Of a stretch of DNA of 64,000 nucleotides, positions 484 to 31,175 are shown in pieces. Below the pieces are notes generated by a model. That model saw nothing but the letters and a program-made list of their open reading frames with translations, was not told where the DNA came from and made no database searches. Source of the stretch: Onchidella celtica (Eukaryota > Mollusca > Gastropoda > Systellommatophora > Onchidiidae); NCBI GenBank assembly GCA_963931925.1, contig OZ007570.1, forward strand, positions 2,351,037 through 2,415,036, read 5' to 3'. Within the stretch, counting starts at the first letter, position 1, and each line of letters starts with the position of its first letter. The position numbers and the translations under genes were made by a program.

Positions 484-3400
484 ATGGTGGGACAGTCTGG
501 CACGGATGATCCACCGTACGGACCAGCTTTGGGAGACAAAGATGTCAAAGAGGAGATTCAGAAAGACCTCACAGCTTTGAGTGATCAGTCTGTGAATGTA
601 GTGGAAAAGGAAAGGAGTCAACTGGAAGTTAAACTTGCCCCCTTGCACTCCTCCGGGGAAAACACAAACAGAGAGAAAGAATCGCCTTCAGATCTTCAGT
701 ACAAGAATTCACCAGAACATAGTTTTGGGAATGCCTGTTGGCATGCTATTTCTCCAGATCCTGAACTTTTAGACGGTATCGCGACAAGTAAATACGGTGA
801 TGAAGATGTCAACAGGGATGCAATGGAAAAGTGCTGCATTTTGACCAGTGATAAAGTGAATGAATCAAAATCTGACGTGAAAGCAAATATGACCCAGGCC
901 AGTCGTGGACAAAGGTTGGACAGTGGTACGGGCGGCGCAATACCGAAACGACCAAACTGGTTTGCTCCGACCAATTTGCGGACGTGTGGCGACAATCACG
1001 ATCCCGACCCTGAATCCAGATGCCAAGAATTGCAGGTCAGTGGAAAGAAGACGTGGAAACAGGACAAATACAAAAACAGCGCTCAACCAGAGAATATGAA
1101 ATGGAAGCGTCCGGCCGTGACTGATAACCCTGGTGACTCATCGATGCCAAGTGAAAAGTCAAACCAAATTTTTGAGGGTCACTTTGAATCCAGGAGTCAC
1201 CGAGAAGAAGATTGCCTGGATAGCGGTAACCAAGGGCAGGTAACTCCCCGAAAGTCATTAGATCAACCAGCGACTCCAGACTCCAAAAAAGTAGCCCGGG
1301 ATGTGAAAAACACGAACAGATCCCAGAACCTCACGTTGAAAAGAAATGAAAAGTCGGGTAGATCTTTAACACCGCCCGTTTCTTCGACAGCAGGGGGAGA
1401 TAGAGGCAAGAATTGTTTCCACAGTTCAGACATGATGAGCGGAAAGTCCGAAGATAGTCAGATGAATCTGAGTACAGAAACACTGACAGGGGATTCCCAA
1501 AGACTGAACGTCCCGGAAAAAAAGAAGCGAGTGAGAGGTCCACGTCGACGCAAACGTGGCCCCAGATATGACCAGCCGGATGAGCAACAGCAGCAACAAG
1601 GAATCCGTGGTCAAACCAGTGTCACTGGACCAGATGGCCCAAGAAGTCAAGATCATCCCTCAAAACCAACTGCTTCAGTTAAAGCTTGCAATGACGACCA
1701 CAAGAACGGGACGAAACAGGATAGAAAAACCCAACCTCCCGCTCCTAAGCGAGTTCTTCAGACAAATAAAGGCTATAGCAAACCTGAAATGATTATTTCA
1801 GGTGTAGTGCTCCAAATTATGTACAAATTTGCATCCACAGAGGAGGCCAAGGAAACTATTCGTCAACACGCCTATGTCCCTGAGAATGTTCAACTGCAGA
1901 TTGTTGAAGAATCAATTGTTCGGGTCCAGTCAAGATGCCACTGCGAGATCGTCGTACATGCTAAACAGCTTCAGCTGGCAAAGCAATTTGTGCTTAAGTT
2001 GTGTCACAGCATGAGCGATAGCTTGAGTGCCGAAGTAAAACATGCATTTCTCCTTCCAACGACAGCCAGAAATGAAGGAGAACGAGGTGTTCAAGACGTT
2101 GACCAGCGCCAAAGAGGTGACAGTTCAAGAGCAAATTCTTCAGTAAAGAAAAGTGCCGTGTCTTCAGATCCAATAACAAAACCAGAGAAGATTCGCGACA
2201 ACAAATGTAAATTTAAGCAGCAGGGCAGAGATTCTGGTTCAGTTTCAGCCAGAGTGACGGTCACGGTTAAACAGGAGTTCTCACGAAATGATGATCTTTT
2301 TACTTTTCTGAAAAGGGTTATTGGCGACAATCTGTGGCATGAAGTGCGGGACAAATCTTGTCAAAAGTTGTCGCCCCAGGCTCAGTGTCAGATAACTACC
2401 AACAGCAAAACTTCGGCGACGAAGATAGCGAAGAAGCTAACATCTTCAAAACTAGATAAAATGGCTATCAGTTGTGTTGTTTCAGAGAACACACGCAGGG
2501 GAAATAGTGATGAAACACTCTGTCGAGTAGAAAGTGAAAGAGAAAATACGTCACGTGAAATCCACTCAAAAATGGCATCCATTTTGATAACAATGCTGAT
2601 GAAAATTCATAACCTGCAAGGCTGTATTCGCCACACGAAAAAAATAAGACGTAAAGATGAATCTGAACAGCGCAAATTGCAAGAACAAAAACAAGAGTTG
2701 GCAAACTTGCAGAAACTGCGCAAGGGATTCTTCATGGGTTGCAACACTCTGAAGGAGAAGGTCAGAAAGCTAGATCCAAAGTTAACATCTGTCAAAGAGT
2801 TGTCAGAAGTACATCGCAGCTTTGAAGCTGAATGTCGGCGTGCCAGGGCAGCTTTGCCAATATATTTCATGAGAGACGAGATCGTGAAACATGTCACAGA
2901 AAACCAGGTCTCCATCATACTTGGTGAGACAGGCTCAGGGAAAAGCACACAAATAGTGCAGTACCTGTACGAAGCAGGACTTGCTGGGGACAAACTGATT
3001 GCGTGCACACAGCCACGTAAAGTGGCGGCCATGATGATTGCAGAACGAGTTGGTCAAGAAATGGGCGGCAAGACAGGTGGTCTCGTTGGACACAGGAGTG
3101 GAGTAGACACCAAAATCTCCAAACTGACCAAAATTGTTTTCTCAACAGACTACAACTTAATGCGGGAATGTGCAAATGACCCTGCGCTGTCAAAGTATTC
3201 TTGCATTGTTGTTGATGAAGTTCACGAACGCTGTATCTACACGGACGTTCTGCTGAGCATGCTCAAAAGTTGTTTGTCTAACAGACCAGATTTAAAAGTG
3301 ATCATAACATCAGCCACTGTCGACCCTGCACTTTTTGTGGGCTATTTCCAGTGTAATCCAGCCCTGCAGGTCCCAGGCAATACGTATCCTGTCAACATTA

Positions 3401-6400: not shown

Positions 6401-7158
6401 TCTCTCTCAGAGGAAGCCCCGAAAATGTCGACAAAGCAGCTGCTAGCATTTCGGAGTTGGAGAGTATTCTAGTGCAGTCACAGACAAACGATCCTGGGAA
6501 ATGGGCCCCTCATTGTGCTGTCTGTCTTGATGTTATTGAAATAACGTCTGATCTACACAGACTAGAGGGGTGTGGACATGCATACTGTATGTCTTGTTTG
6601 AAAATACAGATAACAGTGTCCATCAGGAACAAGCTTTTCCCCATTGCTTGTGTTCACGAAAATTGTGAAACCGACATGGTATGGCAGGACCTTCATCTCT
6701 TTGTGCAAAAAGAATGGATCCGGGAAGACGAACTTGTAAGCATGTCCTTAAATGCTTATGTAGCGTGCAATCAGAATAAATACAGATTTTGTATCACTCA
6801 GGGTTGCTCTGGGGTGTATGAAGTTACACAAGATGATGAAGGTTGTGAGTTTACCTGCCCTTTGTGCTCTATGAGTATCTGCACATCTTGTCATACCGCA
6901 TATCATGGAGGTCTCACTTGCAAACTTCTCACGAGTCAGGGAGAACTCGAGAAGCGGCTCGACCGATGGATCAAGAAGAAGCCTAGAGAACGAAAACGGT
7001 GCCCAGGTTGCAAGGGGCCCGTGGAAAAAACCGAAGGTTGTAATAAAATGCGTTGTTTATATTGTAAAACTGTCTTTTGTTGGGAATGCGGCGAGAAATT
7101 TGCTGATTCACAAATGTGTTACGCTCATCTCATGAAAATCCACGGTGCTATGTACTAA
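484..7158 (+). CDS. DEAH/RHA-type RNA helicase - RRM - RING-IBR-RING E3 ligase fusion, paralogue 1 (DEAH11/12-like)
   Basis: This is a 2224-residue protein encoded without introns. Residues 1-430 are low-complexity, rich in Ser, Lys, Glu and Arg, with a basic cluster near 345-362 that could act as an NLS, followed by a short Gln run. Two related modules of about 80 residues lie at about 435-522 and 592-670, and a probable coiled coil at about 712-770. The helicase core shows Walker A GETGSGKST at 814-822, TQPRK from 842, motif II DEVHE at 911-915, SAT at 943-945, TNCAET from 1065 and QRKGRAGR at 1112-1119. HA2 and an OB-like segment (about 1352-1414) follow, then an RRM-like domain (about 1540-1620), a KH-like segment (about 1926-1996) and an RBR from C2011. 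In RING2, CPGC is at 2173-2176 and the expected catalytic Cys in GCNKM is C2186. RBR ligases pass ubiquitin through this Cys. I infer an RNA-dependent ATPase coupled to ubiquitin transfer; the substrate is unknown. An upstream in-frame stop supports the start. Motif II is DEVH rather than DEAH. Confidence 0.93.
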   Translation: MVGQSGTDDPPYGPALGDKDVKEEIQKDLTALSDQSVNVVEKERSQLEVKLAPLHSSGENTNREKESPSDLQYKNSPEHSFGNACWHAISPDPELLDGIATSKYGDEDVNRDAMEKCCILTSDKVNESKSDVKANMTQASRGQRLDSGTGGAIPKRPNWFAPTNLRTCGDNHDPDPESRCQELQVSGKKTWKQDKYKNSAQPENMKWKRPAVTDNPGDSSMPSEKSNQIFEGHFESRSHREEDCLDSGNQGQVTPRKSLDQPATPDSKKVARDVKNTNRSQNLTLKRNEKSGRSLTPPVSSTAGGDRGKNCFHSSDMMSGKSEDSQMNLSTETLTGDSQRLNVPEKKKRVRGPRRRKRGPRYDQPDEQQQQQGIRGQTSVTGPDGPRSQDHPSKPTASVKACNDDHKNGTKQDRKTQPPAPKRVLQTNKGYSKPEMIISGVVLQIMYKFASTEEAKETIRQHAYVPENVQLQIVEESIVRVQSRCHCEIVVHAKQLQLAKQFVLKLCHSMSDSLSAEVKHAFLLPTTARNEGERGVQDVDQRQRGDSSRANSSVKKSAVSSDPITKPEKIRDNKCKFKQQGRDSGSVSARVTVTVKQEFSRNDDLFTFLKRVIGDNLWHEVRDKSCQKLSPQAQCQITTNSKTSATKIAKKLTSSKLDKMAISCVVSENTRRGNSDETLCRVESERENTSREIHSKMASILITMLMKIHNLQGCIRHTKKIRRKDESEQRKLQEQKQELANLQKLRKGFFMGCNTLKEKVRKLDPKLTSVKELSEVHRSFEAECRRARAALPIYFMRDEIVKHVTENQVSIILGETGSGKSTQIVQYLYEAGLAGDKLIACTQPRKVAAMMIAERVGQEMGGKTGGLVGHRSGVDTKISKLTKIVFSTDYNLMRECANDPALSKYSCIVVDEVHERCIYTDVLLSMLKSCLSNRPDLKVIITSATVDPALFVGYFQCNPALQVPGNTYPVNINYEKAKMFDILKDTETAAVLKAVNVHKNEGAGDILVFVTSPVEIMHCIEKFEHQMKELRDFKCFPLHGQLSSDVQRQVFDPLPKGIRKVVFATNCAETSMTIDGIKYVIDTGVAKEVRYDPKTNITSLCKCMISKSSANQRKGRAGRTSEGKCYRLYTEDDYKSMQAFTQPEILRVHLGQAVLKLAELGVDVNTYDFVQSPSADAIDAAIKTLLELGALNSEGITDSGRFIAKLPFDPRQGYLVYKGSKKNLLYDSVVVASLISNGSNLFYRGLTQPEEQTTARNKNLFGSSCGDVMTWLDVFKTWTQLPKQQQSEWCRGNCINYKVMSSVKKCIKDVAAVLDKELGLEMKLKFSPEETTKRLLQRLIFEAHKSSLCCFLGHSKAGYFAFAIDQSVHIHPSSSLVAQNVKPEWIVYTELTKTSRDFVKCITVVEEAWLLEAIHRGQMNFELDKVKERKLKLVHREEAGKSVFREFKVPELEHSFSQAGMSDVIVETNRELGTLNIYSSSDMIPECSDEIRMIKEPVYERLAGAEYESKNCKDNDERHGGFNVVLQQGGTVKSILRPGQSDTILITQSDSTFSEEEILDKFEKFGEIVKIERFHGRGSRWGIIKYSCASEAETAVINTKHDEENAAQLKVNTRRHPGQKTFEARLSWVRRPVKGLGNAFITCHPEDRELLIGENIELSGRKYRIGLSRNPDNPNLVCAGIGEKEEDAVVRALLEILPHLADDIKGLVKIPREHVPIPDDYEIMRLKRDLCTQIEEFLPSSEFELIFNSPRETSLCQVAFIRFSNPLRGLRACMEMTGELRMGSYIVKINPKMKTRIYTSDKVKKISEQKLDEIKNKFKEKVSFNIGQARHRGFMIDIESSEAQPLVEVRDAVTSLLNGTIVDCKQNHFMKRLLKPGGWKTVKELEKRFQVLIIPDDRREELRLYGSEENVTMVTETIQHFGEGRQVDVCLRGSGKPPGLMKKLMAKYGALDNDFCEAFGLDDVIIDFKRHTLSLRGSPENVDKAAASISELESILVQSQTNDPGKWAPHCAVCLDVIEITSDLHRLEGCGHAYCMSCLKIQITVSIRNKLFPIACVHENCETDMVWQDLHLFVQKEWIREDELVSMSLNAYVACNQNKYRFCITQGCSGVYEVTQDDEGCEFTCPLCSMSICTSCHTAYHGGLTCKLLTSQGELEKRLDRWIKKKPRERKRCPGCKGPVEKTEGCNKMRCLYCKTVFCWECGEKFADSQMCYAHLMKIHGAMY

Positions 7159-7774
7159 GACGTCTTTTTCTGTAACTATTGTTTCTCTCCTGTCCAAATG
7201 ATGGATTTATGAAATAGTAAAGTGTTCACGCGTTCTACTAGGCAGGGATCCTGTCCCCTCAAAACAATTTTTATTATCTAAAATCAGATTTGACATCAGA
7301 GGGCAACGTCAAGAAACAAGAAGTTTGGCGTGTGTTGAAAATGGAAGAGATTAGTCCTGTAGATGTATAAAATTTTGTCATGCCATTTGTCTGTATGAAG
7401 ATTATTTAGATTGTACGGTTGTTGTTTTTTGTGAGTACAATTTTCAGTCATTTTTCTTTCATATCAAATTATCATTTATTAATCATGCCTTGAGTTAGCT
7501 CGCTCAAAGGTTTCATGGGATCGAAGGTCCACCGCTGTCATCGACTAGGAGCTGTGCGCTTGTGGTCAGTAGATACCTGTCTCATCGTCCCTACACACTG
7601 CAGTATAGAACTGCTTACACTGTTACAGTACTTTATCATGTTGTTTTTGAGTCACAGATGTACGATTTTTGTAATGCCTCCCTCCTCCCCCCCCCCCACC
7701 ACCACCACCACCACCCAATTAAGTCTACATTAAACTACAGAACTGATTCTGACACTGACATCCAAAGAGTACAT
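7159..7774 (+). other. 3' flank / presumed 3' UTR of helicase-RBR gene 1
   Basis: Non-coding, AT-rich sequence follows the stop codon at 7156-7158. It contains a C9 run followed by a short (CCA)n tract at about 7688-7716. No AATAAA was seen directly after the stop. The first good match is at about 7995, already inside the degenerate 40-bp repeats, so the transcript end is uncertain. Confidence 0.35.
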
Positions 7775-8570
7775 ATATAAATGATATAACTGATGTAATG
7801 AGTATTTTATTTACATGCATGTGATATAGCTGATGTAATGACCACTGTGTCTCCCTACGTGTGCCACAGACCATGTAATGATTTTTGTGCTTACCTACAA
7901 ATGCCGTAGCTGAAGTAATTATTACTGGTTTCCCTACAAATGCCATAACTGGAGTAATAGTTATTATGTCTCCCTATAAATGCAATAGCTGAAATAAATA
8001 ATGAGTGTTGTCTACTTAAAAAACGTCATAGCTGATGTAATGAGTGTTTACTGGCAGATACCATAGCAGCTGTTATGATTTTTGTGTTCCCCTACATATA
8101 AGTCAAAGCCAATTAATGATTATCGTATCTCACTACAAATGCCATAGCTGATGTAGCGATTATTGTATTTCCATACAAATGCCATAGCTGAAGTAATGAT
8201 TATTGGTCTCCTTACAAATGCCAAAGCTGAAGTAATACTTAATAGGCCTCTCTATTAATGATATAACTGATGTAATGACTGTTGTTTCTCCCTTCAAATG
8301 CCATAGCTGATATAATGATTACGTGTACATACAAATGCCATAGCTAAAGTAACTATTACTATGTCTCCCTAATAATGCCATAGCTCATGTAATGATTGTT
8401 GTTTCTCCCTACAAATGCCATAGCTGACGTAGTGATTATTATGTCTACCTATAAATTCCACAGTTGAGGTGATGATTTTTGTGTTTTCTTACAAATGTCA
8501 CAGCTGAATGAGTGATGTGTTTACAGACAGATGCCATGGGTGATGTAATGATTGACATGTCTACAAAGTA
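7775..8570. repeat. Degenerate 40-bp tandem repeats, old flank of the minisatellite
   Basis: Diverged units recur about every 40 bases, following a pattern like CAAATGCCATAGCTGATGTA then ATGATTATTGTGTCTCC. Units carry many substitutions and small indels, in contrast to the near-uniform array that starts near 8.7 kb. This fits an older, decaying edge of the same satellite. No coding potential is seen. Confidence 0.8.
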
Positions 8571-8710
8571 GTACACGTAATTGAAAGGCAATTGAAGAAT
8601 GATTAATGAAGTTCCTACTTAATCCGTACTTTAATGGCACATAATCAAATCTATAAATATACTTGAATAAACAATGATTTACTACCCCTTACAAAGCATT
8701 CATGTAAATT

Positions 8711-10170
8711 TTAATGTAATAACCGGTGTACTGATTATTGTGTCAACATACAAATGCATAGTTGAAGTAATGATTGTCTACAATCAAATTAATGCCATAG
8801 TTGGTGCAATGGTTATTGTGTCTACATACAAATGTCGTAGTTGATGTAATGGTTATTGTGTCCACATTCAAATGTCGTAGTTGCTGTAATGGTTATTGTG
8901 TCTACATACAAATGTCGTAGTTGCTGTAATGGTTATTGTGTCTACATACAAATGTCGTAGTTGATGTAATGGTTATTGTGTCTACATGCAAATGTCGTAG
9001 TTGCTGTAATGGTTATTGTGTCTACATACAAATGTCGTAGTTGATGTAATGGTTATTGTGTCTACATACAAATATCGTAGTTGATGCAATGGTTATTGTG
9101 TCTACATACAAATATCGTAGTTGCTGTAATGGTTATTGTGTCTACATACAAATGTCGTAGCTGATGCAATGGTTATTGTGTCCACATACTAATGTCGTAG
9201 TTGATGCAATGGTTATTGTGTCCATATACAAATGTCGTAGTTGATGCAATGGTTATTGTGTATACATACAAATGTCGTAGTTGCTGTAATGGTTATTGTG
9301 TCTACATACAGATGTCGTAGCTGATGCAATGGTTATTGTCTCTACATACAAATGTCGTAGTTGATGTAGTGGTTATTTTGTCTACATGCGAATGTCGTAG
9401 CTGATGCAACGGTTATTGTGTCTACATACAAATGTCGTAGTTGATGCAATAGTTATTGTGTCTACATACAAATGCCGTAGCTGATGTAATGGTTATTGTG
9501 TCTACATACAAATGTCGTAGCTGATGCAATGGTTATTGTATCTACATACAAATGTCGTAGTTGATGCAATGGTTATTGTATCTACATACAAATGCCGTAG
9601 TTAATGTAATGGTTATTGTGTCTACATACAAATGTCGTAGTTGATGCAATGGTTATTGTGTCTACATACAAATGTCGTAGTTGATGCAATGGTTATTGTA
9701 TCTACATACAAATGCTGTAGTTGATGTAATGGTTATTGTGTCTACATACAAATGTCGTAGTTGATGTAATGGTTACTGTGTCTACATACAAATATCGTAG
9801 TTGATGCAATGGTTCTTGTCTCTACATACAAATTTTGTGGTTGATGTAATGGTTATTGTGTCTACATACAAATGTCGTGGTTGATGTAATGGTTATTGTG
9901 TCTAAATACAAATGTCGTAGCTGATGTAATGGTTATTGTGACTACATACAAATGTCGTAGTCGATGCAATGGTTATTGTTTCTACATGCAAGTGCCATAG
10001 TTGCTGTAATGGTTATTGTGTCCGCATACAAATGTCGTAGTTGATGCAATGATTATTGTGTCTACATACAAATGTCGTGGTTGATGCAATGGTTATTGTG
10101 TCTACATACAAAATGTCGTAGTTGATGCGATGGTTGTTGTGCCTACATACATAATTATGCCACAGTTGGT
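8711..10170. repeat. 40-bp minisatellite, about 35 units
   Basis: A highly regular 40-bp period is visible: each unit contains ATGGTTATTGTG, TCTACATACAAATG and TCGTAGTTGATG. Units differ by a few substitutions such as TTGATG/TTGCTG and GTAAT/GCAAT. The 40-bp period is not a multiple of three, so no long repeated protein is encoded; the short open frames inside it are incidental. The array lies about 1.5 kb beyond the end of the first helicase gene. Confidence 0.95.
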
Positions 10171-10189
10171 GTAATTTTTGTATTTTATA

Positions 10190-10350
10190 TTTTGTATACT
10201 TCTTTAATTCCATTTGGGGAATTTGCCTTAGTGTCATTGCAGCCAGTTACAACTGGAGCAGACACGTCGTCGCCACAGTGTGGATCAATTTTATTTGCCC
10301 TGGCAGCGGCCTGTTTGGCCTGGTATTTTCAATTTTCAACTGCCAATGGT
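10190..10350 (-). repeat. tRNA-derived SINE, 3' part only (family A)
   Basis: The stretch containing CATTTGGGGAATTTGCC, then CCAGTTACAACTGGAGCAGA and a GGCAGCGGCCTG block, matches the reverse complement of the 3' half of the fuller SINE at 42.3-42.7 kb and the left part of the copy at 36.2-36.7 kb. The tRNA-like head is missing. It sits inside the minisatellite, whose units resume at about 10345. Confidence 0.7.
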
Positions 10351-10440
10351 TATTGCGTCTACATGCAAGTGCCATAGTTGAAGCAATGGTCATTTTGTCC
10401 ACATACGTAGCTGAAGAAGTTATTTCTATGTTTACATCGA
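10345..10440. repeat. Residual minisatellite units after the SINE insertion
   Basis: About two units of the 40-bp satellite reappear here, with AATGGTTATTGCGTCTACAT and ATAGTTGAAGCAATGG. They show that the array was once longer and was split by later insertions. Another remnant is visible at about 10690-10735. Confidence 0.65.
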
Positions 10441-10447
10441 GGTCGCC

Positions 10448-10676
10448 GTGGTAAACTGTCGTAACTCGACATTTTTGAGCTTGAAATATTTGGCGTGCTT
10501 GCAGCCACTGACAGCCCGCAGATAGATTGTGTTATATCGTCTTCGTTAAATTCTGAAAACTAAGGGTTAAATAAGTTGTTGTTTTTTTAATAGCTACTAA
10601 GTCTGATGAAGAAGATAATTTAGTTGTTTGCTTCTCCTGAAAATTTTGTAAGAATCAAGATACGACAGTTTACCAC
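10448..10676. mobile_element. MITE-like element with 16-bp perfect terminal inverted repeats
   Basis: GTGGTAAACTGTCGTA at 10448-10463 is the exact reverse complement of 10661-10676. The roughly 229-bp unit has no coding capacity and lies between two remnants of the 40-bp satellite, as expected for an insertion. I could not identify a clear target-site duplication, so the superfamily is not assigned. Confidence 0.6.
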
Positions 10677-10737
10677 CCGTCAATGGATATATAAAAATCA
10701 TAACTGATGTAATGATTACAGATGCAGTAGCTGAAGT

Positions 10738-13734: not shown

Positions 13735-14200
13735 AACAACATGTTGTACGGACATGCACAGTGCATATAATATCCGTACAACGCACACAATTCGATGACG
13801 TAGAACACAATCATACCGGAATACTATATTACTGACCTTGTTAATTTGCCTAGTTTTCAAAAATATGAATCGGCTTAGTAGCAAAACAGTCCGACTTCTG
13901 CTCGGAGATTGCGTGATCTGCGCTAATAATATACTTGAGTGTACGTTGATCACCAATGGCTACCCCAACCCCTTTTCGCCTGATTAGTCAATCTGTCTAC
14001 CGCCCATTGATACAAACTGACTAGACCCTCACGCCCCCAGGTCCATCTGACTATTCCATGTGTTGTCACTTTAAATTCGTGAACACCATATCAAGTTTTG
14101 TTTCAGCAAACCTTCACCAGTCGCGCTTTTTGGTAAAACATGTTGTACGGATGTGCACTCTCCATATCCATACAGCATGTTGTACGGATATACACTTCCT
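13735..14200. repeat. Short repeated ACATGTTGTACGGA-type units
   Basis: ACATGTTGTACGGA followed by a short GCAC-containing stretch occurs near 13740 and near 14140, with a related TTGTACGGATATACAC unit near 14175. They suggest an older short repeat around the foldback region. No coding evidence. Confidence 0.45.
13955..14036 (+). repeat. Inverted-repeat pair, left copy
   Basis: The blocks GGCTACCCC, GTCAATCTG and TGATACAAACTGACT, ending in ACCCTCACG, match the reverse complement of 15786-15890, allowing for a short internal length difference. The pair could be two copies of one transposon in opposite orientation, or the arms of a foldback element of about 1.9 kb. Confidence 0.65.
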
Positions 14201-14209
14201 TGTTTAATA

Positions 14210-15120
14210 GTGAACACATGGCCGGAAGTGGTAACGACATGGGTCCATGTGTTCGTGGAAAGGACAGGCTCGGGGCGACACAAATCAAATTTAAAAAAAT
14301 ATTCCTCCATCAGTTCAGTTCTCCAAATCTGAGAAAGAACCTTTCCCAGATCAAAAGGAAGGCGTCTGTTGTGAGAATAAACAATAAATTTGGTAATGAT
14401 TCCCCCCCCCCCCCTTCCCAAATCAAAACTTTCCTCACCAATGTGTAAATTTCTTATTTGAAGTAACAGTTTATATATAAGTGTACTAAATCTTCTACCT
14501 CAACAAGCAAAAGCAAAATGGAAACAAATTCGGGTAGCCAGTCAGTGCGGTCACATGTGCGTTCATAAACTCTCATCACGTTTCCCGCACTTTTAAAAAA
14601 ACTCATTCTTATTATTATTTGTTCATTACTCCATTATCTCGTTTCTTTCTGAGCTAAGAAAGTGCGTCGAAGATTTTATGGGTTGTCATTGATTTACAGC
14701 CAGTAACATTTAGTTTTATGGGTTACTTATTCTGGTCTTTTTGTACGGCACGTATTGTTTTTCTTACGTGTGACGCTGTCAGTGTCAACAATGTCAAGTC
14801 ATTAGTACCTATTAAAAAAACAAATGAGTGAATAAAATAATAACGAAACAATCCATATAAAGAATTCACAGTTTTTGTTTCGTTCATTATGATTTTCGTA
14901 TTTTTATTTTGTTCTAGCTTTTGGTGCCGTGATACTGGGTCGGTGCAGTGATTGATGCAGTGGTACTGGATTGGTGCAATGATACTTGGTTGGTGCAATG
15001 AAGGAGCGATGTTTATATATACTGTGCATAGAAAATGATATGGAATACAATTCATTTCAGTATTTCTTGTGCAGTCTGTAATTAAAATGTCATAACGTAA
15101 TTCTTTGATGACTGTGAATC
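14210..15120. other. Unassigned DNA with a C-run
   Basis: No gene is supported. A run of 13 C lies at about 14402-14414. Several short TACTGGATTGGTGCA-like units near 14930-15000 look like a small degenerate tandem repeat. Confidence 0.35.
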
Positions 15121-20895: not shown

Positions 20896-22381
20896 ATGTC
20901 CCGGCCTCAAGAGGAGTCGGCAGAAACACTGCTCACAAATTTAACATCGCAACTTCAGTTAATCACGCACATGGCAGCCCAGCAGTCAAGTCAATGCAGT
21001 TTTGATAAAATTGCCCTACTTTTGGACCACATGCCCAGGGGTATGGTTTGCTGGAGTGGAGGTCCAGTTTGGCAAGAAGAACATTATACAGGACCAAAAA
21101 AAAAAATATGATTATGTAGTGAGTGCATCAAAATGCCAAACAGCTGAGGAGATACAAGATGTTTTCATTAACCCTCCAAAAGCGGAAACATATGTCACTT
21201 TGAAAAAGGCTTTCTGAAATGGCTTTTTAGAACAGAAAGGAAGTAGGATGCCTTTGATCGTGAACTCCTTGCAGCCTACTCAGATATCAAACATTTCAGA
21301 CCTTTTACGCTATACACAGATCACAAACCTTTGACGTTAGCTCTCATGAGTCAAACTGACCGTCAAGACATCTTTCTTACATTGCTGAGTTCACCACTGA
21401 CATCCAGTACATCCGGGGCTGGTTCAGTGTAGTAGTGGACGCCCTTTGATGTTTCAGCACCAACTCCATTTCAGAAAGACACTGCATCTCAAAAGTAAAT
21501 GACTTCAGTCGCCTTGCTCAAGATCAGATTCAGTCTGGCAAGACGGAGGCCACTTGCAAAGCTCCCACTGGTCTTTGGCTACAAGATGTCCAGCCGGGGA
21601 CATCAACCCTGCTCTGTGATATATATCCACTGGTGTACAGTACAGAGGCCTATGCTACCAAAATCCTGGACTCACTCACTCTTTGACCACATTCATGGAC
21701 TCTCACATGTAGGTGCACATCCCACTCAACAAGCCATCAGCCAACGTTTTGTGTGGTACGGTATGAAAAGTGAAATATGCGTGTGGTGCAAGCAAAGAAT
21801 GTCATGCCTGCCAAATATCCAAAATTCATCAACACACAAGAGCACCACTAGTGGAACGTCTGCCCACCAACACCAGCTTCTGCAGTCTGCATGTAGACCT
21901 TGTTGGTCTTTTCCAACCAGCCAGGGCATGACTTATGTGTTCATCATCATAAACCGTTTCACCAGATGGCCAGAAGCCATTCCTCTACCTGATGCCCATG
22001 CTTCCACTTGTGCTACAGTTCTCATCCACCACTGAATTGCCCAATCGATTTGGGATTCCAGAAGACATTATCTCAGATTGCGGCAGATAGTTCACCTTAA
22101 ATCTTTGGGCAGAGTGTAACAAGCTGTTTGGTATTGAGACACATAGAGCCACAGCTTATCACCCTCAAGCGACGGGCATGGTTGAGCGTTTCCAGCGTCA
22201 GTTCAAGGCAGCACCCAAAGCTCTGATTGCATCAAGATTTCGAATAGTTGCAGAACTGCCCATGGTTCTGTTGGGAATTCACTCTTATTGGCGAGTGGAC
22301 CCCGATTGCTCTCCAGTTTGTTGTTTCCTAAACTGGAATTGTTTCAGAGCATCAGACAATGCCAGATCATCTGTATTCTGA
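20896..22381 (+). pseudogene. Ty3/Gypsy retrotransposon remnant: gag joined to RNase H and integrase
   Basis: Gag-like frames at about 20896-21217 contain blocks such as LPYFW..CPGVWFA and KYDYVVSA. Shortly after come RNase H remains (FDRELLAAYSDIKHF, YTDHKPLTLA) near 21250-21350. Integrase remains follow: a CHACQ-type zinc-binding piece near 21800, core fragments such as GIPEDIISDCGR, and TAYHPQATGMVERF at about 22150-22195. Protease and the polymerase core are missing, so gag is joined almost directly to RNase H by an internal deletion. Several frameshifts and stops confirm it is dead. It ends about 1.2 kb before the second helicase gene. Confidence 0.8.
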
Positions 22382-23582: not shown

Positions 23583-26500
23583 ATGTCACACACAGAAAGG
23601 GGCAGGGGAAGGGGAGGAAGAAGTTCCCATTCTGGAAGGGGTGGTGGGCATCATTTTTCCTCCAGCCCCACAGATCGCAAGGGTTATAACTGTCAGTCTG
23701 CACACTGTGAATGCCAGCAAAAGCATTTTCATCATGCTCCGCCCCAACACTTTACATCATCCCCTAGCCCGGAACATCATCATCAATATCATTATCAACA
23801 GCATCATGCTCAGCAGCTACACTATCATGCAGGGTTATCTCCCCTTCTCCCTCCCCCTCCTCCTCCTCCTCCTCAAGCAACACACATTACTGTGTCTGTC
23901 AACCCATATCCCCCACCCCCGCAGCCACCCCCGCAGCCGCCCCCACTCATGCAGCCACCTCCACCCCCAGCTCCTTATGAAACTACCAAACAATACCCGC
24001 AACCACCAGGTCCATACCACCACAAGGGCTATTATCCTCCCCCACCCCCAAGCTATGGAAGAGATGGGAATCACATGTCATCTTATCACCAACCCAGAGA
24101 TGATGGAAATCACAGCCGACAAAGGTATCCATCCAATAGACCCAATGATGGATACCATCAGAATGATAACCATGTTCACTTGCATGCTCAAAGTGGCAGG
24201 AATGAATGTAGAGGAGATCAGCACCAACGACCAAGAACAGATAACTATCAGGGGAGATCTTCTGAGAATCAAAGACACGGAGCTCACAGTTCAAGAAACA
24301 CTCATTACCAGGAAGACTCACCACCAGCATATGACTCTCTCTTTACAAATGTCCCAGGAAACTGCACAGACACTTCCAGGTCACAACAGCGAGCCCAAAA
24401 ACATCCTTCAAGGGCACAAAATGTTCCACGTGAGTCCGAGTATAAGAAATTCAAGGAGCACTTTCATTATGACAAGTTGAATCAAGATAAAAGTAGTAAA
24501 ACAACCACCGCAGATTTGAAAGGGCAAGATGGGACTTCTAAATCCAGATATGGCAAGGGTAAAGAATTCCCAGCACAAAAAGTGACAAGAGCTGAAAGCA
24601 CCGAGTCTCTACAGAGTGTAGGAGCCAGGCCCAAATCTGCACAGAAATATATGAAGTCTGCCGTAGGCAAAAACCTAGTGGATATTTCAGGCTATGAAAA
24701 CGATGGAGATAATGCAGATGACAAACTAACAACTTCTGGAGGTAGAGGAAATTGGAGGGGTCGATTTCGAGGCCATAGAGGTCATGGTGGGTATCATGGC
24801 AAGCCCAATTTAAAATCACGTGACACTGAAAATGATTATGAGCTTAATGAAGGAGATTCAGGTGGTGAAAGTGATGAAAGTATTGCAAGTAGCACATCAA
24901 CAACTTCGAGAGGTCGAGGTAGGGGTCGGGGTCAAGGTTCCAGAGGTCGAGGTGGGTATCATGGCAAGCCCAATATAAAGTCAGGTGACACTGGAAATGA
25001 TTATGAGCTTAATGAAGGGGATTCAGGTGGTGAAAGTGATGGAAGTATTGCAAGTAGCACATCAACAACTTCTAGAGGCAGAGGAAAATGGAGAGGTCGA
25101 GGTAGGGGTCGGGGTCAAGGTTCCAGAGGTCGAGGTGGGTATCATGGCAAGCCCAATATAAAGTCAGGTGACACTGGAAATGATTATGAGCTTAATGAAG
25201 GGGATTCAGGTGGTGAAAGTGATGGAAGTATTGCAAGTAGCACATCAACAACTTCTAGAGGCAGAGGAAAATCGAGGGGTCGGGGTCGAGGTGGGTATCA
25301 TGGCAAGCCCAATTCAAAATCAGGTGACACTGAAAATGATTATGAGCTTAATGAAGGGGATTCAGGTGGTGAAAGTGATGGAAGTATTGCGAGTAGCACA
25401 TCAACAACTTCTAGAGGCAGGGGGAAATGGAGAAATCAAAGTTCTAGAGGTCGGAGTGGGTACAGTGGCAAGCCTGACTTGAGCAAGGGAGAAAATGTAC
25501 CCGAATCAAGTGAAAGACACCAAAGAGTGGACAAAATCAACAGTGATGAAGTAACACATGGAGATCAGAAATATGCGGGAGACCAAAGTGTAATGAAGAA
25601 ACACCGTCACAGAAAGCATGGGAAGAAAAAAGACCAAGAAAGCTGGAGGCCCGAAACTGAAGGTGAAGGCTTTAATCAGAAGGCTCAATGGCCTGAGCCA
25701 TCCATTCGGATTACAAGAGCTGCACTGGAGATCATCAAAGCCTTCCCAAATCCAGATGCCCTGAAAGAAACTGTTCAGGCAAATTTTGTAACATCTGAAG
25801 ATGCTGTTTTAAAGTTTGTGGAAGAGTCAATAGTTTGCAGTGAGCACAGAAGTCTTTGTACTATACTTGTGCAGACAGACAGTAAACAGTTAGCAAAGCG
25901 TCTCATCAAGACTTTATATACTAGTCTGAGAAAAAATCTGAAAACAAAAATTACATTTGAGATATCAAGTGCTGAAGAGAAAGTGACAAATTTTTCACCC
26001 AATATTACCAACCCTAGCGAAAGCCGGACACGTTCTAAGGTTGATCATATCTTATCAAAAGCCAACAGTAGAAGACCAAATTCTGATAAGGGAAAAAAGG
26101 TGACAGATGAGTTGAAAACTTCCTGTGGCATTGCTAAATTAAATGAAAGAACTTTTGCCACAGCTGCTCCAAGCAATACCTGCAAAGAAAAACAAACCCA
26201 CAGCAGTCTCACTCAAGATCCTACAGCCATTCCAACCAAAATGTCAGTCAGTATTGATAAAGTTTTTGAGAAACCTAAGGACGTGCATGATTTCTTAAGA
26301 AGAATTGATGCAGAGAAAATACCATTTGAGATTTTGACTGACACGATTGTCATTTCAAGCTCAAAGACTCTTTGTGAGCTGCAAGCCAATAGTAAAGCAG
26401 CTGCTAAAAGGCTTGCAAAGCAGCTGATGTCAGTAAAATTGGAAGGAGTGCAGTTGAAATGTATCCTGGCTGAAAACTCTGGACAACGGCCTGACATGGA

Positions 26501-29500
26501 TGCTAAATCTGAGCACTTCAGCAAAGAGATAGAGAACACGTTGAAAGAGATTGAAAGACGCACAGCTGAAGCAGTGGCAACTCACAAGTTAAAAATTAAA
26601 GCATATGAAGAAGCTCTCGATGTGATGGAATCATCATGGATGGATGGAGGAGAAATTAATGATGATGACAGGAATGAAGTTCTGGCACTTAGAGACAAAT
26701 TGACAGAGGTGCTGAAGCAGGAGAGAGAATTCCGTTCAAGGCAGAAATCCCTGATAGAAAAAGTGAAAGATCTGGATCCCATGACAATTTCAATAAAAGA
26801 TTTGAACGATGCACAGAGAGCAGTAGGGGTGGAGTGTGAACGCCTTAGTATTGCACTCCCAATTTATGCCCGACGTAAAGATATCCTGAAGAAGGTGACT
26901 AACGAGCAAGTGTCAATTATTCTGGGTGAGACAGGTTCTGGGAAAAGCACCCAAATGGTCCAATATCTGTATGAAGGTGGACTTGCGGGAGAAAAGCAGA
27001 TTGTGTGTACACAACCTCGGAAAGTTGCTGCTATGACATTAGCAGAAAGGGTGGCAAAGGAATTGGTAGTCAAAGTTGGAAACACGGTAGGCTATCAAAC
27101 TGGAATGAAGAAAATAGTATCAGAAAGAACGAAGATTATTTTCTGTACAGATCATTGCCTCCTAAATGAATGTTTGGCTGATCCCAAACTGACCAAGTAT
27201 TCTTGTATTGTGGTTGATGAAGCACACGAGAGAAGCATTTATACAGATATCCTCTTGGGCATGATTAAAAACTGTCTACCGCACAGACCAGATCTTAAAA
27301 TTGTCATCACCTCTGCAACCATTGATCCTGGAATATTTATCAAATACTTCAGTTGTGATGACGAACTGCGGGTGTCAGGGAGAACATTTCCAGTGGATGT
27401 GATTTATGTGGACACTGAAAGTGATCATGAATTTGAAAATTTTGAAACCAAAGCAGTGCGAAAAGCTGTGGAAGTCCATAACAAAGAAGGTCCAGGAGAT
27501 ATTCTTATTTTCCTGACTTCTCCTGTTGAAATCATGAGATGCTGCGAAGAATTTGAGAAGTGTATGAAAGGGAGGAATGACTTCAAGTGTTTTCCTTTGC
27601 ATGGGCAGTTGCCCCCATCAGAACAGAAGAAGGTCTTTGAGCATTTAGCTGAAGGAATACGAAAAGTTGTTTTTGCTACCAACTGCGCAGAGACCTCAAT
27701 CACAATTGACGGCATTAAACACGTCATAGACACAGGGGTTGCTAAAGAAGTGAGGTATGATGCAAAAAGAAATATTAGTGTCTTGGGTACTCACATCATC
27801 AGCAGGAGTTCAGCCAATCAACGCACAGGTCGTGCTGGACGGACATCCAGTGGCAAATGCTATCGTCTCTACACTGAGGAGGGCTACAGCTCAATGACTG
27901 CCATAACTGAACCTGAAATCTTGAGGGTTCATCTAGGCCAGGCTCTCTTGAAACTTGCTGAGTTGGGAGTTGACGTTAAAGCGTATGATTTTGTACAATC
28001 CCCCAGCGCTGATGCCATTGATGCTGCAATCAAGACCTTACAAGAACTGGGAGCCTTGTCTTCTGAAGGCATCACTGATATTGGGCGTTTTATAGCCAAG
28101 CTGCCTTTTGACCCAAAGCAAGGTTATCTTGTGTATGAAGGCCTCATGAATAACTTGCTCTATGACTCTGTGGTTGTGGCTTCTCTGATCAGCAATGGAT
28201 CTAACTTGTTTTACAAAGGTCTGAATGAATCAGAGGAACAAACAGCCGCCAAGAGCAAAAACAAGTTTGGATCAGAATATGGAGATATTTTTACATTTCT
28301 GGAGGTTTATCAACATTGGGTTCAACTTCCAAGAGATGAGCAGTCAAAGTGGTGTGCAGAAAACTGCATTAACTATAAAATCATGAGCTTCACCTTCCAA
28401 AGCATCAAAGAGGTGGCAACAGTCTTAAATAAGGAGCTAGGTACAAAGGTAGAGTTCAGATTTGCTTCAGAGGAAGAGGCAAAGACTACTCTGCGAAAAA
28501 TGATTTTTCAAGCCAACAGGTCTTCAGTTTGTCAATTTTTGGGACACTATAGAGCTGGGTACTATGCTTTGACTGTGGAGAAGCAAGTCCATTTACATCC
28601 CTCGTCAGTTTTAGTGTCACAGAAAACAGAGCCCGAGTGGATTGTGTACACAGAGTTTACCAAAACCTCACGTGACTTTATAAAGGGAGTCACGGTTATT
28701 GATGAAGAATGGGTCCTTGAAGCTGTGAGCACGGGTAATCTGTCTCTGGATCTCAGTCAGTCACGGCAGCGTAAGATTGAAGTGGTCCGTAGAGAAGAGG
28801 TTGGGTCTTCAGTGTTCAGATGTCTTGTTGGGCCCAGGTATGCTAATCTACGAACACTAGAAGACGAGCTCATAAACACAGGCATGGCCACGGTTGTTGT
28901 TGAGGCAGATAGAGAACTTTCAACTGTAGATGTATACTCATCTTCCCCCATGAATCCCACAAGTGCTGACAATATAAACAAGATAAAGAAGGATGTCATT
29001 GAAAAACTTTGTTCAGATGAGGATGACATTGAAATAAGCAAGGAATGCTGTGGCTTTCGAGTTGTGCTTGGTCAGGGGGGATCTGTGAAAGCTCTTCTTA
29101 TGCCGCATCAGAGCAACAAAATCCTGATTAAAAAATCTAACTATGAGACAACTGAGGATGACATCAAAGCTAAGTTTGGAATGTATGGAGATATCAAAGA
29201 AATTGTACGTTTCAAAAATCCTGATACATGGGGATTTGTAAGGTATAGTTCCCTTTCACAAGCTGAGGCTGCAGCACAAGGCACTAAGAAAGATGAAACA
29301 AATATTGCTGTTCTGAAAATTGACCATCACAACAATAAATTGGTCACTAAATTTCAAGCACGGTTGTGTTGGTGCAGAAGACCTGTAAAAAAAAATGGTA
29401 CTGCATTTATCAAGTGTCCACTCATCGAGCAAAGCAGGCTCATTGGTAGAACACTCTGCCTCCAGGGTCAGTACTGTGAAATCAAACTGTCTAAAAATGA

Positions 29501-31175
29501 AGATGAGCTGATTTGTTTCAATACAGGAAAAACACCAGAGAAAGAGATAAAAAAACAAGTGATGGAGATTTTGGGTTATGATGAAACAGCAGGGAACAAC
29601 ATAAGAGTCAGTGTGATACGAGAGAAAGTAGATGTCCCTTCCAGAGAACAGATGAATAAAATCAAGGATTGTTTGTCAGAATGCTTTTCAAGCTACATCG
29701 CTAAAGACAAATTTACTTTGCACCTTAACCCACCCAAAGAAAATTCAGTCACGCAAGTGGCCTTCATTGGCTTCACTAACCCTGTTGCAGGATTCCAAGC
29801 TTGCAAATCATTGGAGGGAAGACTTTGCATAGAGGGTCAAGCAGTTGAAATCAGCCCAGATCTGAAGACAAGTGTGTTTGTTTCAAAGTCCATAATGAAA
29901 GTGTGTAAAAATCGTTTTGAAGAGATCATCAGTGGGTTGGAACAATACAAACATACAGAGGTGAAAATGCGTTCCCTGAAGCAAGGGGATTTTGCCATTG
30001 ACATCATGTCATCAGAACCAAAGCTCATCATAGAGGCCAGAGATGTGTTTCAAAAAGAATTGGATGGTGAAATCATTGACTGTGGACTTAATACCCTCCT
30101 TTTAAACCTCTTAAAGCCACAAGGAAAAGAGTTCCTTGACAAAATAGAAAAGGACGTGGATGTGTTTATCATGAGGGATGAGCGCAGACAGAAAATTCAC
30201 ATTTATGGTTCGGGGCAGAATGTCACCCGTGCACAAATGAAGATAAATGCATATCTGAGCAAGCTGGCAGAGGGAAAGCAAATTGACATATATCTCAAAG
30301 GCCCAGGAAAGCCGGCAGGTTTGATGAAAGCATTGATAAAGAATTTTGGCTCTTTGCAGAATGACTTTGTGGAACAGTTTGGCCTAAGTGATGTTGTTGT
30401 AGATTTCAAAAAGCAGAAGTTATCCATTCTTGGATCCTCTGATGCAGTGGACAGAGTATCTGCCTGCATTTCAGAACTTGAAAAGAACTTGCAGCCAAGC
30501 ACCCCATCGCATGAAAAATTGGTACCAGATTGCGTAGTTTGCATGTGTCCAGTTGACCCAGTCTCAGAACTATACCGATTGGAGGGATGTGGACACAGTT
30601 ACTGCACTGACTGTATGAAACACCAGGTTGAAGTTGAAATAGATAACAAAAAGTTCCCCATTTCATGTGCCCTGGAGAATTGCAACATGCCTTGGGTATG
30701 GAAAGATTTTCGTTTTTCTATACGTCAGAAATGGACAACAGAAGAAAAATTGGTGCAAAGATCTGTGAATGCTTTTGTGTCTTCAAACCAGGATAAATAC
30801 AGATATTGCATCACTCCCAATTGTCCAGTGGTCTATGAGATCACACAGGATGATGAAGGTTGTGAGTTTACATGTCCCTTGTGCTCTGTGAGTCTCTGTA
30901 CATCTTGTCATACAGCATACCATGGAGGTCTCACTTGCAAAATGGCAGTAAGTCAAGAAGAAGCTGACCTGCAGTTTGAACAATGGAGAAAGAAAAATGC
31001 TGCTCGTTGCAAAACCTGTCCAGGCTGTACAGCTTCAATTGAGAAGAGCGCAGGGTGTAACAAGATGCACTGCATACACTGTAATGCTTACTTTTGCTGG
31101 ATTTGTCTCTACAAAGCTGAAGATGAGCAAGAATGTTACCGCCACCTTCAGAAAGTACACGGTGGCTTTGTATGA
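23583..31175 (+). CDS. DEAH/RHA-type RNA helicase - RRM - RING-IBR-RING E3 ligase fusion, paralogue 2 (DEAH11/12-like)
   Basis: This is a 2530-residue protein without introns; a TAA at 23577-23579 fixes the start. The N-terminus carries an RGG-like patch (residues 5-22), His/Gln-rich sequence and long proline runs (about 88-140). Four near-identical repeats of about 52-61 residues follow at about 401-632, alternating an acidic/Ser block (DYELNEGDSGGESD) with an RG-rich block. Two paralogous modules lie at about 708-795 and 886-966, then a coiled coil (about 980-1066). Helicase motifs are intact: GETGSGKST at 1115-1123, DEAH at 1212-1215, SAT from 1244 and QRTGRAGR at 1413-1420. Next come HA2, an OB-like segment (about 1652-1716), an RRM-like domain (about 1845-1905), a KH-like segment (about 2233-2303) and an RBR from C2317. 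RING2 has CPGC at 2479-2482 and the predicted catalytic C2492. A Cys/His-rich end (CYRHLQKVHG) follows. I infer an RNA-binding helicase-E3 ligase that may act in RNA granules; the substrate is unknown. Confidence 0.93.
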   Translation: MSHTERGRGRGGRSSHSGRGGGHHFSSSPTDRKGYNCQSAHCECQQKHFHHAPPQHFTSSPSPEHHHQYHYQQHHAQQLHYHAGLSPLLPPPPPPPPQATHITVSVNPYPPPPQPPPQPPPLMQPPPPPAPYETTKQYPQPPGPYHHKGYYPPPPPSYGRDGNHMSSYHQPRDDGNHSRQRYPSNRPNDGYHQNDNHVHLHAQSGRNECRGDQHQRPRTDNYQGRSSENQRHGAHSSRNTHYQEDSPPAYDSLFTNVPGNCTDTSRSQQRAQKHPSRAQNVPRESEYKKFKEHFHYDKLNQDKSSKTTTADLKGQDGTSKSRYGKGKEFPAQKVTRAESTESLQSVGARPKSAQKYMKSAVGKNLVDISGYENDGDNADDKLTTSGGRGNWRGRFRGHRGHGGYHGKPNLKSRDTENDYELNEGDSGGESDESIASSTSTTSRGRGRGRGQGSRGRGGYHGKPNIKSGDTGNDYELNEGDSGGESDGSIASSTSTTSRGRGKWRGRGRGRGQGSRGRGGYHGKPNIKSGDTGNDYELNEGDSGGESDGSIASSTSTTSRGRGKSRGRGRGGYHGKPNSKSGDTENDYELNEGDSGGESDGSIASSTSTTSRGRGKWRNQSSRGRSGYSGKPDLSKGENVPESSERHQRVDKINSDEVTHGDQKYAGDQSVMKKHRHRKHGKKKDQESWRPETEGEGFNQKAQWPEPSIRITRAALEIIKAFPNPDALKETVQANFVTSEDAVLKFVEESIVCSEHRSLCTILVQTDSKQLAKRLIKTLYTSLRKNLKTKITFEISSAEEKVTNFSPNITNPSESRTRSKVDHILSKANSRRPNSDKGKKVTDELKTSCGIAKLNERTFATAAPSNTCKEKQTHSSLTQDPTAIPTKMSVSIDKVFEKPKDVHDFLRRIDAEKIPFEILTDTIVISSSKTLCELQANSKAAAKRLAKQLMSVKLEGVQLKCILAENSGQRPDMDAKSEHFSKEIENTLKEIERRTAEAVATHKLKIKAYEEALDVMESSWMDGGEINDDDRNEVLALRDKLTEVLKQEREFRSRQKSLIEKVKDLDPMTISIKDLNDAQRAVGVECERLSIALPIYARRKDILKKVTNEQVSIILGETGSGKSTQMVQYLYEGGLAGEKQIVCTQPRKVAAMTLAERVAKELVVKVGNTVGYQTGMKKIVSERTKIIFCTDHCLLNECLADPKLTKYSCIVVDEAHERSIYTDILLGMIKNCLPHRPDLKIVITSATIDPGIFIKYFSCDDELRVSGRTFPVDVIYVDTESDHEFENFETKAVRKAVEVHNKEGPGDILIFLTSPVEIMRCCEEFEKCMKGRNDFKCFPLHGQLPPSEQKKVFEHLAEGIRKVVFATNCAETSITIDGIKHVIDTGVAKEVRYDAKRNISVLGTHIISRSSANQRTGRAGRTSSGKCYRLYTEEGYSSMTAITEPEILRVHLGQALLKLAELGVDVKAYDFVQSPSADAIDAAIKTLQELGALSSEGITDIGRFIAKLPFDPKQGYLVYEGLMNNLLYDSVVVASLISNGSNLFYKGLNESEEQTAAKSKNKFGSEYGDIFTFLEVYQHWVQLPRDEQSKWCAENCINYKIMSFTFQSIKEVATVLNKELGTKVEFRFASEEEAKTTLRKMIFQANRSSVCQFLGHYRAGYYALTVEKQVHLHPSSVLVSQKTEPEWIVYTEFTKTSRDFIKGVTVIDEEWVLEAVSTGNLSLDLSQSRQRKIEVVRREEVGSSVFRCLVGPRYANLRTLEDELINTGMATVVVEADRELSTVDVYSSSPMNPTSADNINKIKKDVIEKLCSDEDDIEISKECCGFRVVLGQGGSVKALLMPHQSNKILIKKSNYETTEDDIKAKFGMYGDIKEIVRFKNPDTWGFVRYSSLSQAEAAAQGTKKDETNIAVLKIDHHNNKLVTKFQARLCWCRRPVKKNGTAFIKCPLIEQSRLIGRTLCLQGQYCEIKLSKNEDELICFNTGKTPEKEIKKQVMEILGYDETAGNNIRVSVIREKVDVPSREQMNKIKDCLSECFSSYIAKDKFTLHLNPPKENSVTQVAFIGFTNPVAGFQACKSLEGRLCIEGQAVEISPDLKTSVFVSKSIMKVCKNRFEEIISGLEQYKHTEVKMRSLKQGDFAIDIMSSEPKLIIEARDVFQKELDGEIIDCGLNTLLLNLLKPQGKEFLDKIEKDVDVFIMRDERRQKIHIYGSGQNVTRAQMKINAYLSKLAEGKQIDIYLKGPGKPAGLMKALIKNFGSLQNDFVEQFGLSDVVVDFKKQKLSILGSSDAVDRVSACISELEKNLQPSTPSHEKLVPDCVVCMCPVDPVSELYRLEGCGHSYCTDCMKHQVEVEIDNKKFPISCALENCNMPWVWKDFRFSIRQKWTTEEKLVQRSVNAFVSSNQDKYRYCITPNCPVVYEITQDDEGCEFTCPLCSVSLCTSCHTAYHGGLTCKMAVSQEEADLQFEQWRKKNAARCKTCPGCTASIEKSAGCNKMHCIHCNAYFCWICLYKAEDEQECYRHLQKVHGGFV
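24787..25480 (+). repeat. In-frame tandem repeats coding for acidic/RG-rich units
   Basis: Four copies of a 156-183-base unit begin with GGGTATCATGGCAAGCCCAA and contain AATGATTATGAGCTTAATGA. All length differences are multiples of three, and most lie in the GGTCGAGGTAGGGGTCG-type RG block. Copies 2 and 3 are nearly identical at DNA level, implying recent expansion or homogenisation. A partial fifth unit (GYSGKP) closes the array. The first helicase gene has no counterpart. Confidence 0.92.

Follow-up and report, generated by a model that had tools for sequence, protein, structure and literature searches.

What a cell might gain by carrying an RNA-remodeling motor and a ubiquitin ligase in a single polypeptide is the question raised by two neighboring genes in a 64,000-nucleotide stretch of DNA, hereafter the window, which occupies positions 2351037-2415036 of contig C4 (OZ007570.1) in a host genome of 1.14 Gb and 43 contigs that was itself searched. 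Each gene encodes a very long protein in which a DEAH helicase core, an OB fold, an RRM-type and a KH-type domain precede a C-terminal RING1-IBR-RING2 (RBR) supradomain. The spliceosome is already under regulation by ubiquitin, Prp19 being reported to ubiquitinate Prp3 (PMC11180117). In that case motor and ligase are separate proteins, and a lineage with both in one chain thus affords a direct test of their coupling. The interest of the pair further lies in how little was found on animal members of this protein kind, in evidence against its being plant-specific, in an undescribed duplicated module, and in the natural occurrence of one copy with and one without an arginine-glycine (RG) tail, which offers two natural variants within one animal for asking what the family does.

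A TANDEM PAIR OF UNINTERRUPTED GENES

Gene 1 (484..7158, + strand) encodes a single-frame protein of 2224 residues, P1, and Gene 2 (23583..31175, + strand) one of 2530 residues, P2. An earlier note on this DNA had described a same-strand tandem pair of 2224 and 2530 residues about 16 kb apart; its coordinates, strand, and lengths proved exact, and 16,424 bases separate the stop codon of P1 from the start codon of P2. Its statement that neither coding region is split likewise holds, in that both frames run open from ATG to stop with 0 introns. By comparison, when each coding region was shuffled 200 times by mononucleotide and read in the three forward frames, the longest open stretches were 234 codons for P1 and 184 codons for P2. 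The nearest in-frame stop lies 17 codons upstream of the ATG in P1 and 2 codons upstream in P2, and in view of these stops the two frames start at the ATGs given here, barring a spliced upstream exon.

Aligned over 2025 columns, the two proteins share 44% identity, which is unevenly distributed along the chain. In blocks of 100 residues numbered after P2, identity is 55-81% through the helicase (1101-1700), 44% at 1701-1800, 31-51% at 1801-2300, and 44-63% at 2301-2500, which holds most of the RBR; the N-terminal blocks (201-1100) show 19-34%.

The uninterrupted state of the pair can be viewed against the host's other genes of either type. OB_NTP_bind is a domain of DEAH/RHA helicases, and a genome scan for it found 18 places. 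The two in the window belong to frames 2531 and 2240 codons long; the frames around the remaining 16, some of which are exons of a single gene, measure 43-121 codons. Because 16 of the 18 places sit in such short frames, intronless DEAH helicases appear to be unusual in this genome. Among the RBR genes of the host, the long-frame intronless state is not unique to the pair: an IBR scan found 12 places, three of them in the pair; among the other nine, four (apparently three genes) have frames 942-1040 codons long around them, and a fifth has one of 539. These three further single-frame RBR genes, on contigs C16, C4, and C2, have 959, 942, and 1040 codons, respectively. Inspected by eye over part of each frame, all three displayed the RBR and none a helicase motif; those on C16 and C4 look paralogous by eye, with RING2 sequences GGCPHM and GGCPCM.

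AGE AND ORIGIN OF THE PAIR

Nonsynonymous (dN) and synonymous (dS) divergence between P1 and P2 was estimated by Nei-Gojobori-style counts with Jukes-Cantor correction. Synonymous sites are saturated or nearly so (dS from 2.3 to undefined), and dN rises from 0.26 in the helicase and 0.36 in the RBR to 0.56 in the linker-RRM-KH segment and 0.81 in the region of the N-terminal modules N1 and N2, described below. Because dS is saturated while the protein has been held, both have the appearance of maintained genes and their duplication that of an old event; as far as the sequences tell, they look like two paralogues from an old tandem duplication, both long kept as proteins. In the host genome KH_DEAH11, a domain of both proteins, was found in two places, each in the pair (six candidates scored; the count is a lower bound).

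Two other origins were considered. Two coding regions without introns might be recent retrocopies, or pseudogenes open by chance, but these copies are adjacent, lie on one strand, and have diverged to the protein identity given above. Given the saturated dS with held protein, and with no intron-bearing parent found alongside the at least two KH_DEAH11 places in the genome, we judge such an origin hardly credible. A viral or prokaryotic source was also set aside, as three scans yielded no relative: the KH-RBR end of P2 (312 amino acids), searched with six short peptide patterns, left 0 of 1 candidate stretch confirmed among viral contigs, and alignment A1, searched with two patterns each time, left 0 of 129 confirmed among viral contigs and 0 of 590 among genome contigs, all from seeds so few and short that distant relatives would be missed.

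THE HELICASE CORE AND ITS RNA-BINDING APPENDAGES

Pfam matches were judged against curated cut-offs, with domains listed up to an E value of 0.1. DEAD, Helicase_C, OB_NTP_bind, KH_DEAH11, and IBR score above cut-off in both proteins, and IBR_1 in P1 only. The DEAH/RHA helicase core and OB fold span 2839..4716 (+; residues 786-1411) in P1, with motif I GETGSGKST, motif II DEVH, and motif VI QRKGRAGR, and 26853..28772 (+; residues 1091-1730) in P2, with GETGSGKST, DEAH, and QRTGRAGR at the same motifs; the helicase motifs, including SAT and TNCAE, are intact in both copies. HA2_N falls under its cut-off of 21 in both (20.9 and 15.5), and an HrpA-type profile spans the core without reaching the cut-off set for this bacterial model (in P1, 432 bits over profile positions 61-680 of 1284). 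Both proteins therefore contain the DEAH/RHA helicase core that characterizes the Helicase (Plant I) subfamily of RBR proteins, with HA2_N below cut-off.

A search of the PDB, made with the P2 core only, places this motor among known helicases. Considering the best 60 of 80 matches, the top positions belong to Prp22/DHX8 (415-399 bits), followed by DHX16, Prp43, DHX15, DHX35, and Prp16 (406-352 bits), then by bacterial HrpA and Prp2 (350-340 bits), and, well lower, by the DHX36, DHX37, and DHX9 types (266-216 bits).

Between the motor and the ligase lie putative RNA-binding domains. The RRM of P2 (29139..29288, +; residues 1853-1902) scores 32.0 bits with RRM_1 against a cut-off of 20.7, and its assignment also draws on RRM chains that match the profile of alignment A1; the RRM-like domain of P1 (5137..5277, +; residues 1552-1598) scores 19.6 bits, just under the same cut-off. 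RRM_DEAH11 reaches 14.1 in P1, below cut-off, and has no listing in P2. The KH_DEAH11 domain of P1 (6265..6462, +; residues 1928-1993) scores 62.9 bits against a cut-off of 27, with KH_DEAH11_2nd below cut-off at 17.5 and KH_DEAH11_1st not listed. The KH region of P2 (29868..30491, +; residues 2096-2303) comprises matches to KH_DEAH11_1st (14.6, under its cut-off of 27), KH_DEAH11_2nd (27.2, barely over 27), and KH_DEAH11 (66.2, cut-off 27), and its second and third KH regions, cut with a five-residue overlap, resemble each other with an hhalign probability of 80.7%. KH_DEAH11 thus stands between helicase and RBR in both copies.

The domain order of helicase, OB, RRM, KH, and RBR proposed in the earlier note, which had suggested a profile search, is borne out by that search: core, OB, KH_DEAH11, and IBR pass in both proteins, and RRM_1 passes in P2 and misses in P1. 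KH_DEAH11 well above cut-off in both copies also upholds the likeness to plant DEAH11/12 that had been pointed out. The architecture had been read correctly; what had been overlooked were the RG repeats of P2, the duplicated N-terminal module, and a His-to-Lys change in RING2, all taken up below.

THE RBR AND ITS CATALYTIC SITE

The RING1-IBR-RING2 supradomain occupies 6514..7143 (+; residues 2011-2220) in P1 and 30531..31160 (+; residues 2317-2526) in P2. It is C-terminal and in the same chain as the helicase in both. The predicted catalytic cysteines, Cys2186 (7039-7041) in P1 and Cys2492 (31056-31058) in P2, each lie in the sequence GCNKM, and, judged by residue pattern, both RING2 domains have the catalytic Cys and the zinc-ligand pattern of an active RBR E3. 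No RING1 Pfam model scored above cut-off in P1 or P2. The RBR can nonetheless be called complete, as had been claimed, because the Cys/His pattern is present in both copies and P2 aligns with ARIH2, in addition to the passing IBR match, and not by virtue of a Pfam RING1. The Cys/His positions of RING1, IBR, and RING2 match between P1 and P2; assigning single residues as zinc ligands is our own step, guided by what we take to be the general RBR pattern.

Residues 10-206 of the 224-residue P2 RBR region align with ARIH2, and its best PDB matches are ARIH2 and ARIH1, with RNF216 next. This region matches 18 PDB sequences, and as not one of these is a helicase-RBR protein, the coupling of helicase to RBR is without a structure there. 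Common to both proteins at the C-terminal end is a C-x2-H-x4-H pattern, which could be a source of ligands or of a catalytic base.

AN RG-RICH REPEAT AND A DUPLICATED N-TERMINAL MODULE

The N-terminal regions hold the greatest differences between the copies. P2 contains an RG-rich repeat of four units (24789..25457, +; residues 403-625), detected as a tandem repeat with a period of 183 bases at 24777-25417, and no such repeat was found in P1; RG occurs 31 times in the first 700 residues of P2 and five times in the first 420 of P1. Over the 44-codon core shared by the units, five of the six unit pairs differ, with proportions of synonymous difference (pS) of 0.134-0.237 versus 0.029-0.039 for nonsynonymous difference (pN). 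The sixth pair shows no difference, which leaves only three distinct unit sequences and makes the pairs interdependent. Small as this sample is, it fits a repeat that is translated and under constraint.

Ahead of the helicase, each protein also bears two copies of a module of about 90 residues: N1 at 1780..2043 (+; residues 433-520) and N2 at 2248..2517 (+; residues 589-678) in P1, and N1 at 25695..25964 (+; residues 705-794) and N2 at 26235..26504 (+; residues 885-974) in P2. These regions were picked after the alignment had been viewed. Compared as paired profiles with hhalign, N1 and N2 match with a probability of 72.6% and an E value of 3.2e-5, a score reached by 0 of 200 column shuffles, and among 28 region pairs compared in this way only N1-N2 and the second and third KH regions of P2 stand out. 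In single-sequence tests with 1000 shuffles each, the score was reached by 0 shuffles for P2 N1 with P2 N2, by 4 for P1 N1 with P1 N2, and by 0 for P1 N1 with P2 N2; the test of P2 N1 against P1 N2 failed, its score being reached by 201 of the 1000.

The module was not recognized as a known domain, there being no Pfam match above cut-off when the 398- and 373-residue regions were searched separately. A PDB profile search returned six matches to AimR-type and BepE chains (E 0.038-0.3), which were taken as chance. Elsewhere in the host genome the N1/N2 region was not found among nine candidates scored, the two matches both lying in the pair.

FAMILY MEMBERSHIP AND PROPOSED MECHANISM

The observation itself is real and had in the main been correctly described, and the pair is old and maintained. 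Its kind is, moreover, probably already known: by their domains P1 and P2 would belong to the ancient Helicase (Plant I, DEAH11/DEAH12) subfamily of RBR proteins. Marin's study of plant RBR proteins distinguishes four plant subfamilies, including Plant I/Helicase, and reports the latter in both unikonts and bikonts, with losses in multiple animal lineages (PMC2904391); because it is present in both groups, the subfamily is held to be very ancient. Two members of more than 1700 residues, GmHELRP1/2, are described in soybean (PMC3904995), and two helicase/IBR proteins in Arabidopsis (PMC6118397), and the B chromosome of sorghum is reported to carry a DEAH11 gene (PMC12849586). Little functional literature on the helicase-RBR family was found. 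The Arabidopsis gene AT5G10370 we take to be DEAH12. It is classed as a Helicase-type RBR gene (PMC3712016), and its expression in root is reported (PMC3827086). Arabidopsis DEAH11 (AT4G01020) is DCS4, a dominant suppressor of cop1-6; a 2024 study describes it as a component of the spliceosome that immunoprecipitates spliceosome members (PMC11180117). The view that the animal versions are barely studied agrees with the scarcity of literature that we met on animal members. Whether such genes would prove common and well characterized in animals, the finding that the earlier note said would count against it, has a divided answer: the subfamily is recognized in animals, and no sign of good characterization there was found.

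We propose that the two paralogues are motors of the DEAH type, associated with a ribonucleoprotein (RNP), that ubiquitinate RNP proteins, and to this mechanism together with the family membership we give an even chance. By analogy with the families concerned, P1 and P2 would dock on an RNP through their RRM and KH domains and their N-terminal region, RG-rich in P2. The Prp22-like motor would then draw single-stranded RNA through its core, remodeling the particle, and the RBR would pass ubiquitin from an E2 to its catalytic Cys and on to a protein of the particle, such that remodeling would be coupled to the marking or removal of particle proteins. The particle would most likely be the spliceosome or a nuclear mRNP, favored because DEAH11/DCS4 is reported in the spliceosome and because the core most nearly resembles DEAH helicases of the spliceosome; taken by itself, the spliceosome step has in our estimate somewhat less than an even chance. 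For the RNA quality control and innate defense suggested in the earlier note we found no evidence here; the nearest functional evidence met with is the reported spliceosome association of DEAH11/DCS4 (PMC11180117). A bolder version, which we regard as doubtful, is that a spliceosome-linked fusion of motor and ligase is ancient and not plant-specific, and has been kept in some animals, here in a diverged pair with an undescribed tandem-duplicated module in common; one copy would use its RG tail, absent from the other, for targeting to RNA or condensates, and the active site of RING2 would use a base other than His.

Several points weigh against a spliceosomal motor-ligase of the DEAH11 family. 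Prp43/DHX15 also act outside the spliceosome, so a core that resembles spliceosomal DEAH helicases is no proof of spliceosome function. Of the four Pfam models that carry the name DEAH11, three fall short or are marginal in one copy or both, and what suggests that the pair is orthologous to plant DEAH11 is shared domains. Two positions after the catalytic Cys, both copies carry a Lys (GCNKM), unlike ARIH1 and ARIH2 with their His (GCNHM). As for DCS4, its assignment to the spliceosome comes from immunoprecipitation with mass spectrometry of overexpression lines, in which every DCS protein so analyzed pulled down dozens of spliceosome members, and its authors term it "apparently plant-specific" (PMC11180117). 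The last description is one that the present pair argues against, in line with Marin, because the architecture and a DEAH11-type KH occur here in a probable animal.

The lysine bears directly on a different possibility, namely, that the RBR has degenerated or has uncommonly little activity, binding E2-ubiquitin or RNA without finishing the transfer, and that the protein is mainly a helicase. The triad His position of ARIH1 and ARIH2 is indeed occupied by Lys in both copies, yet each still has the catalytic Cys and the Cys/His pattern, dN across the RBR is low, and the shared terminal C-x2-H-x4-H is retained. Among RBR proteins the catalytic Cys is described as essential, and the other triad residues, the His included, as not fully conserved; active HOIL-1 has Trp at that position, for which a C-terminal His may substitute (PMC9834252). 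Since the His varies in this way, the lysine need not mean inactivity, and a failing ligase seems improbable to us.

Other functions would leave the enzyme active and place it elsewhere. Proteins of the same family might work mainly in the cytoplasm, in the quality control of RNA or translation, by attaching ubiquitin to proteins on RNPs that have stalled or become crosslinked; the RRM, KH, and RG segments are compatible with mRNA binding, and the RBR ligase RNF14 is reported to act with GCN1 when eEF1A and eRF1 are degraded at stalled ribosomes (PMC10931611). However, RWD, the domain by which RNF14 binds GCN1, is not listed in either protein by Pfam at E up to 0.1, and the plant relative pulled down splicing factors (PMC11180117), so that we consider a cytoplasmic role rather unlikely. 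A sensor of antiviral or innate immunity, whose helicase would detect foreign RNA and whose RBR would signal by ubiquitin, would be in keeping with tandem duplication and with diverged N-terminal regions (19-34% identity versus 55-81% at 1101-1700), both compatible with immune genes. Yet Pfam lists no CARD domain, the PDB matches of P2 (best 60 of 80) are all DEAH/RHA helicases with none RIG-I-like, two copies were found and no expanded family, and the cores are under strong constraint; we hold a sensor to be quite improbable. An RNP-associated motor that ubiquitinates proteins of its particle is thus the reading that we prefer.

THE SURROUNDING WINDOW AND GENOME

The heavily split neighboring gene mentioned in the earlier description could not be confirmed. 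Pfam was run on 30 neighboring fragments of open reading frames, picked by eye from 166: five have reverse-transcriptase, endonuclease, or integrase matches, one has a sub-threshold GMP_PDE_delta match, and no host gene was established among the 30. The GMP_PDE_delta frame lies between the two genes (14071-14499, - strand; 17.3 bits against a cut-off of 25) and may be a piece of a host gene or a chance likeness. Also between them are integrase-like fragments of a long-terminal-repeat (LTR)-type element (21499-22381, +; Integrase_H2C2 at 21499-22032, rve_3 at 22091-22378, below cut-off) and minisatellites, including a large one 3' of Gene 1 (7826-10151) with 40-base units, of which 8727-10151 holds 35.7 copies with 88% matches and the part before it is more diverged.

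Farther downstream, a non-LTR retroelement remnant (55327-58072, +) consists of an endonuclease-like frame followed by reverse-transcriptase pieces in two frames (Exo_endo_phos_2 at 55327-56700, below cut-off; RVT_1 at 56704-57360; RVT_1, below cut-off, with ALKBH8_N at 57284-58069). Two frames on the - strand, 46073-46393 and 51462-51800, have no Pfam match above cut-off; by eye they look like tyrosine-rich cytoplasmic tails with YxxL-like motifs and are perhaps exons of a cell-surface receptor. Elsewhere in the genome, contig C7 carries 33 occurrences of the haemocyanin domain PF14830, which we take to be of the molluscan kind, grouped in three clusters near 0.3, 2.5, and 59.3 Mb; on this ground the host is probably a mollusc that bears haemocyanin.

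COMPARISON WITH KNOWN SYSTEMS

With ARIH1, ARIH2, and RNF216 the pair has in common a RING1-IBR-RING2 and its catalytic Cys; it differs from ARIH1 and ARIH2 in reading GCNKM in place of GCNHM, and Pfam lists no Ariadne domain in P1 or P2. With Prp22/DHX8, Prp2, Prp16, and Prp43 it shares the helicase core and OB fold, Prp22/DHX8 being the best match of P2 (best 60 of 80). To our knowledge, these spliceosomal DEAH helicases carry neither an RBR nor an RRM/KH tail.

Closer by name is a venerid clam "DEAH12", an ATP-dependent RNA helicase likened here by its annotation, which is a mollusc gene, as those of the pair probably are, but is reported as a single-copy nuclear marker there, where two copies exist here (PMC8765752). 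Closest in build are plant DEAH11/DEAH12 and soybean GmHELRP1/2, which are likewise very long proteins with a DEAH helicase and HA2 far upstream of the RBR and a DEAH11-type KH, and of which Arabidopsis and soybean have two members each, like the pair described here. What sets the present pair apart from plant DEAH11/12 is a host that is not a plant, the tandem and intronless arrangement of the two genes, and the RG-rich repeat of P2.

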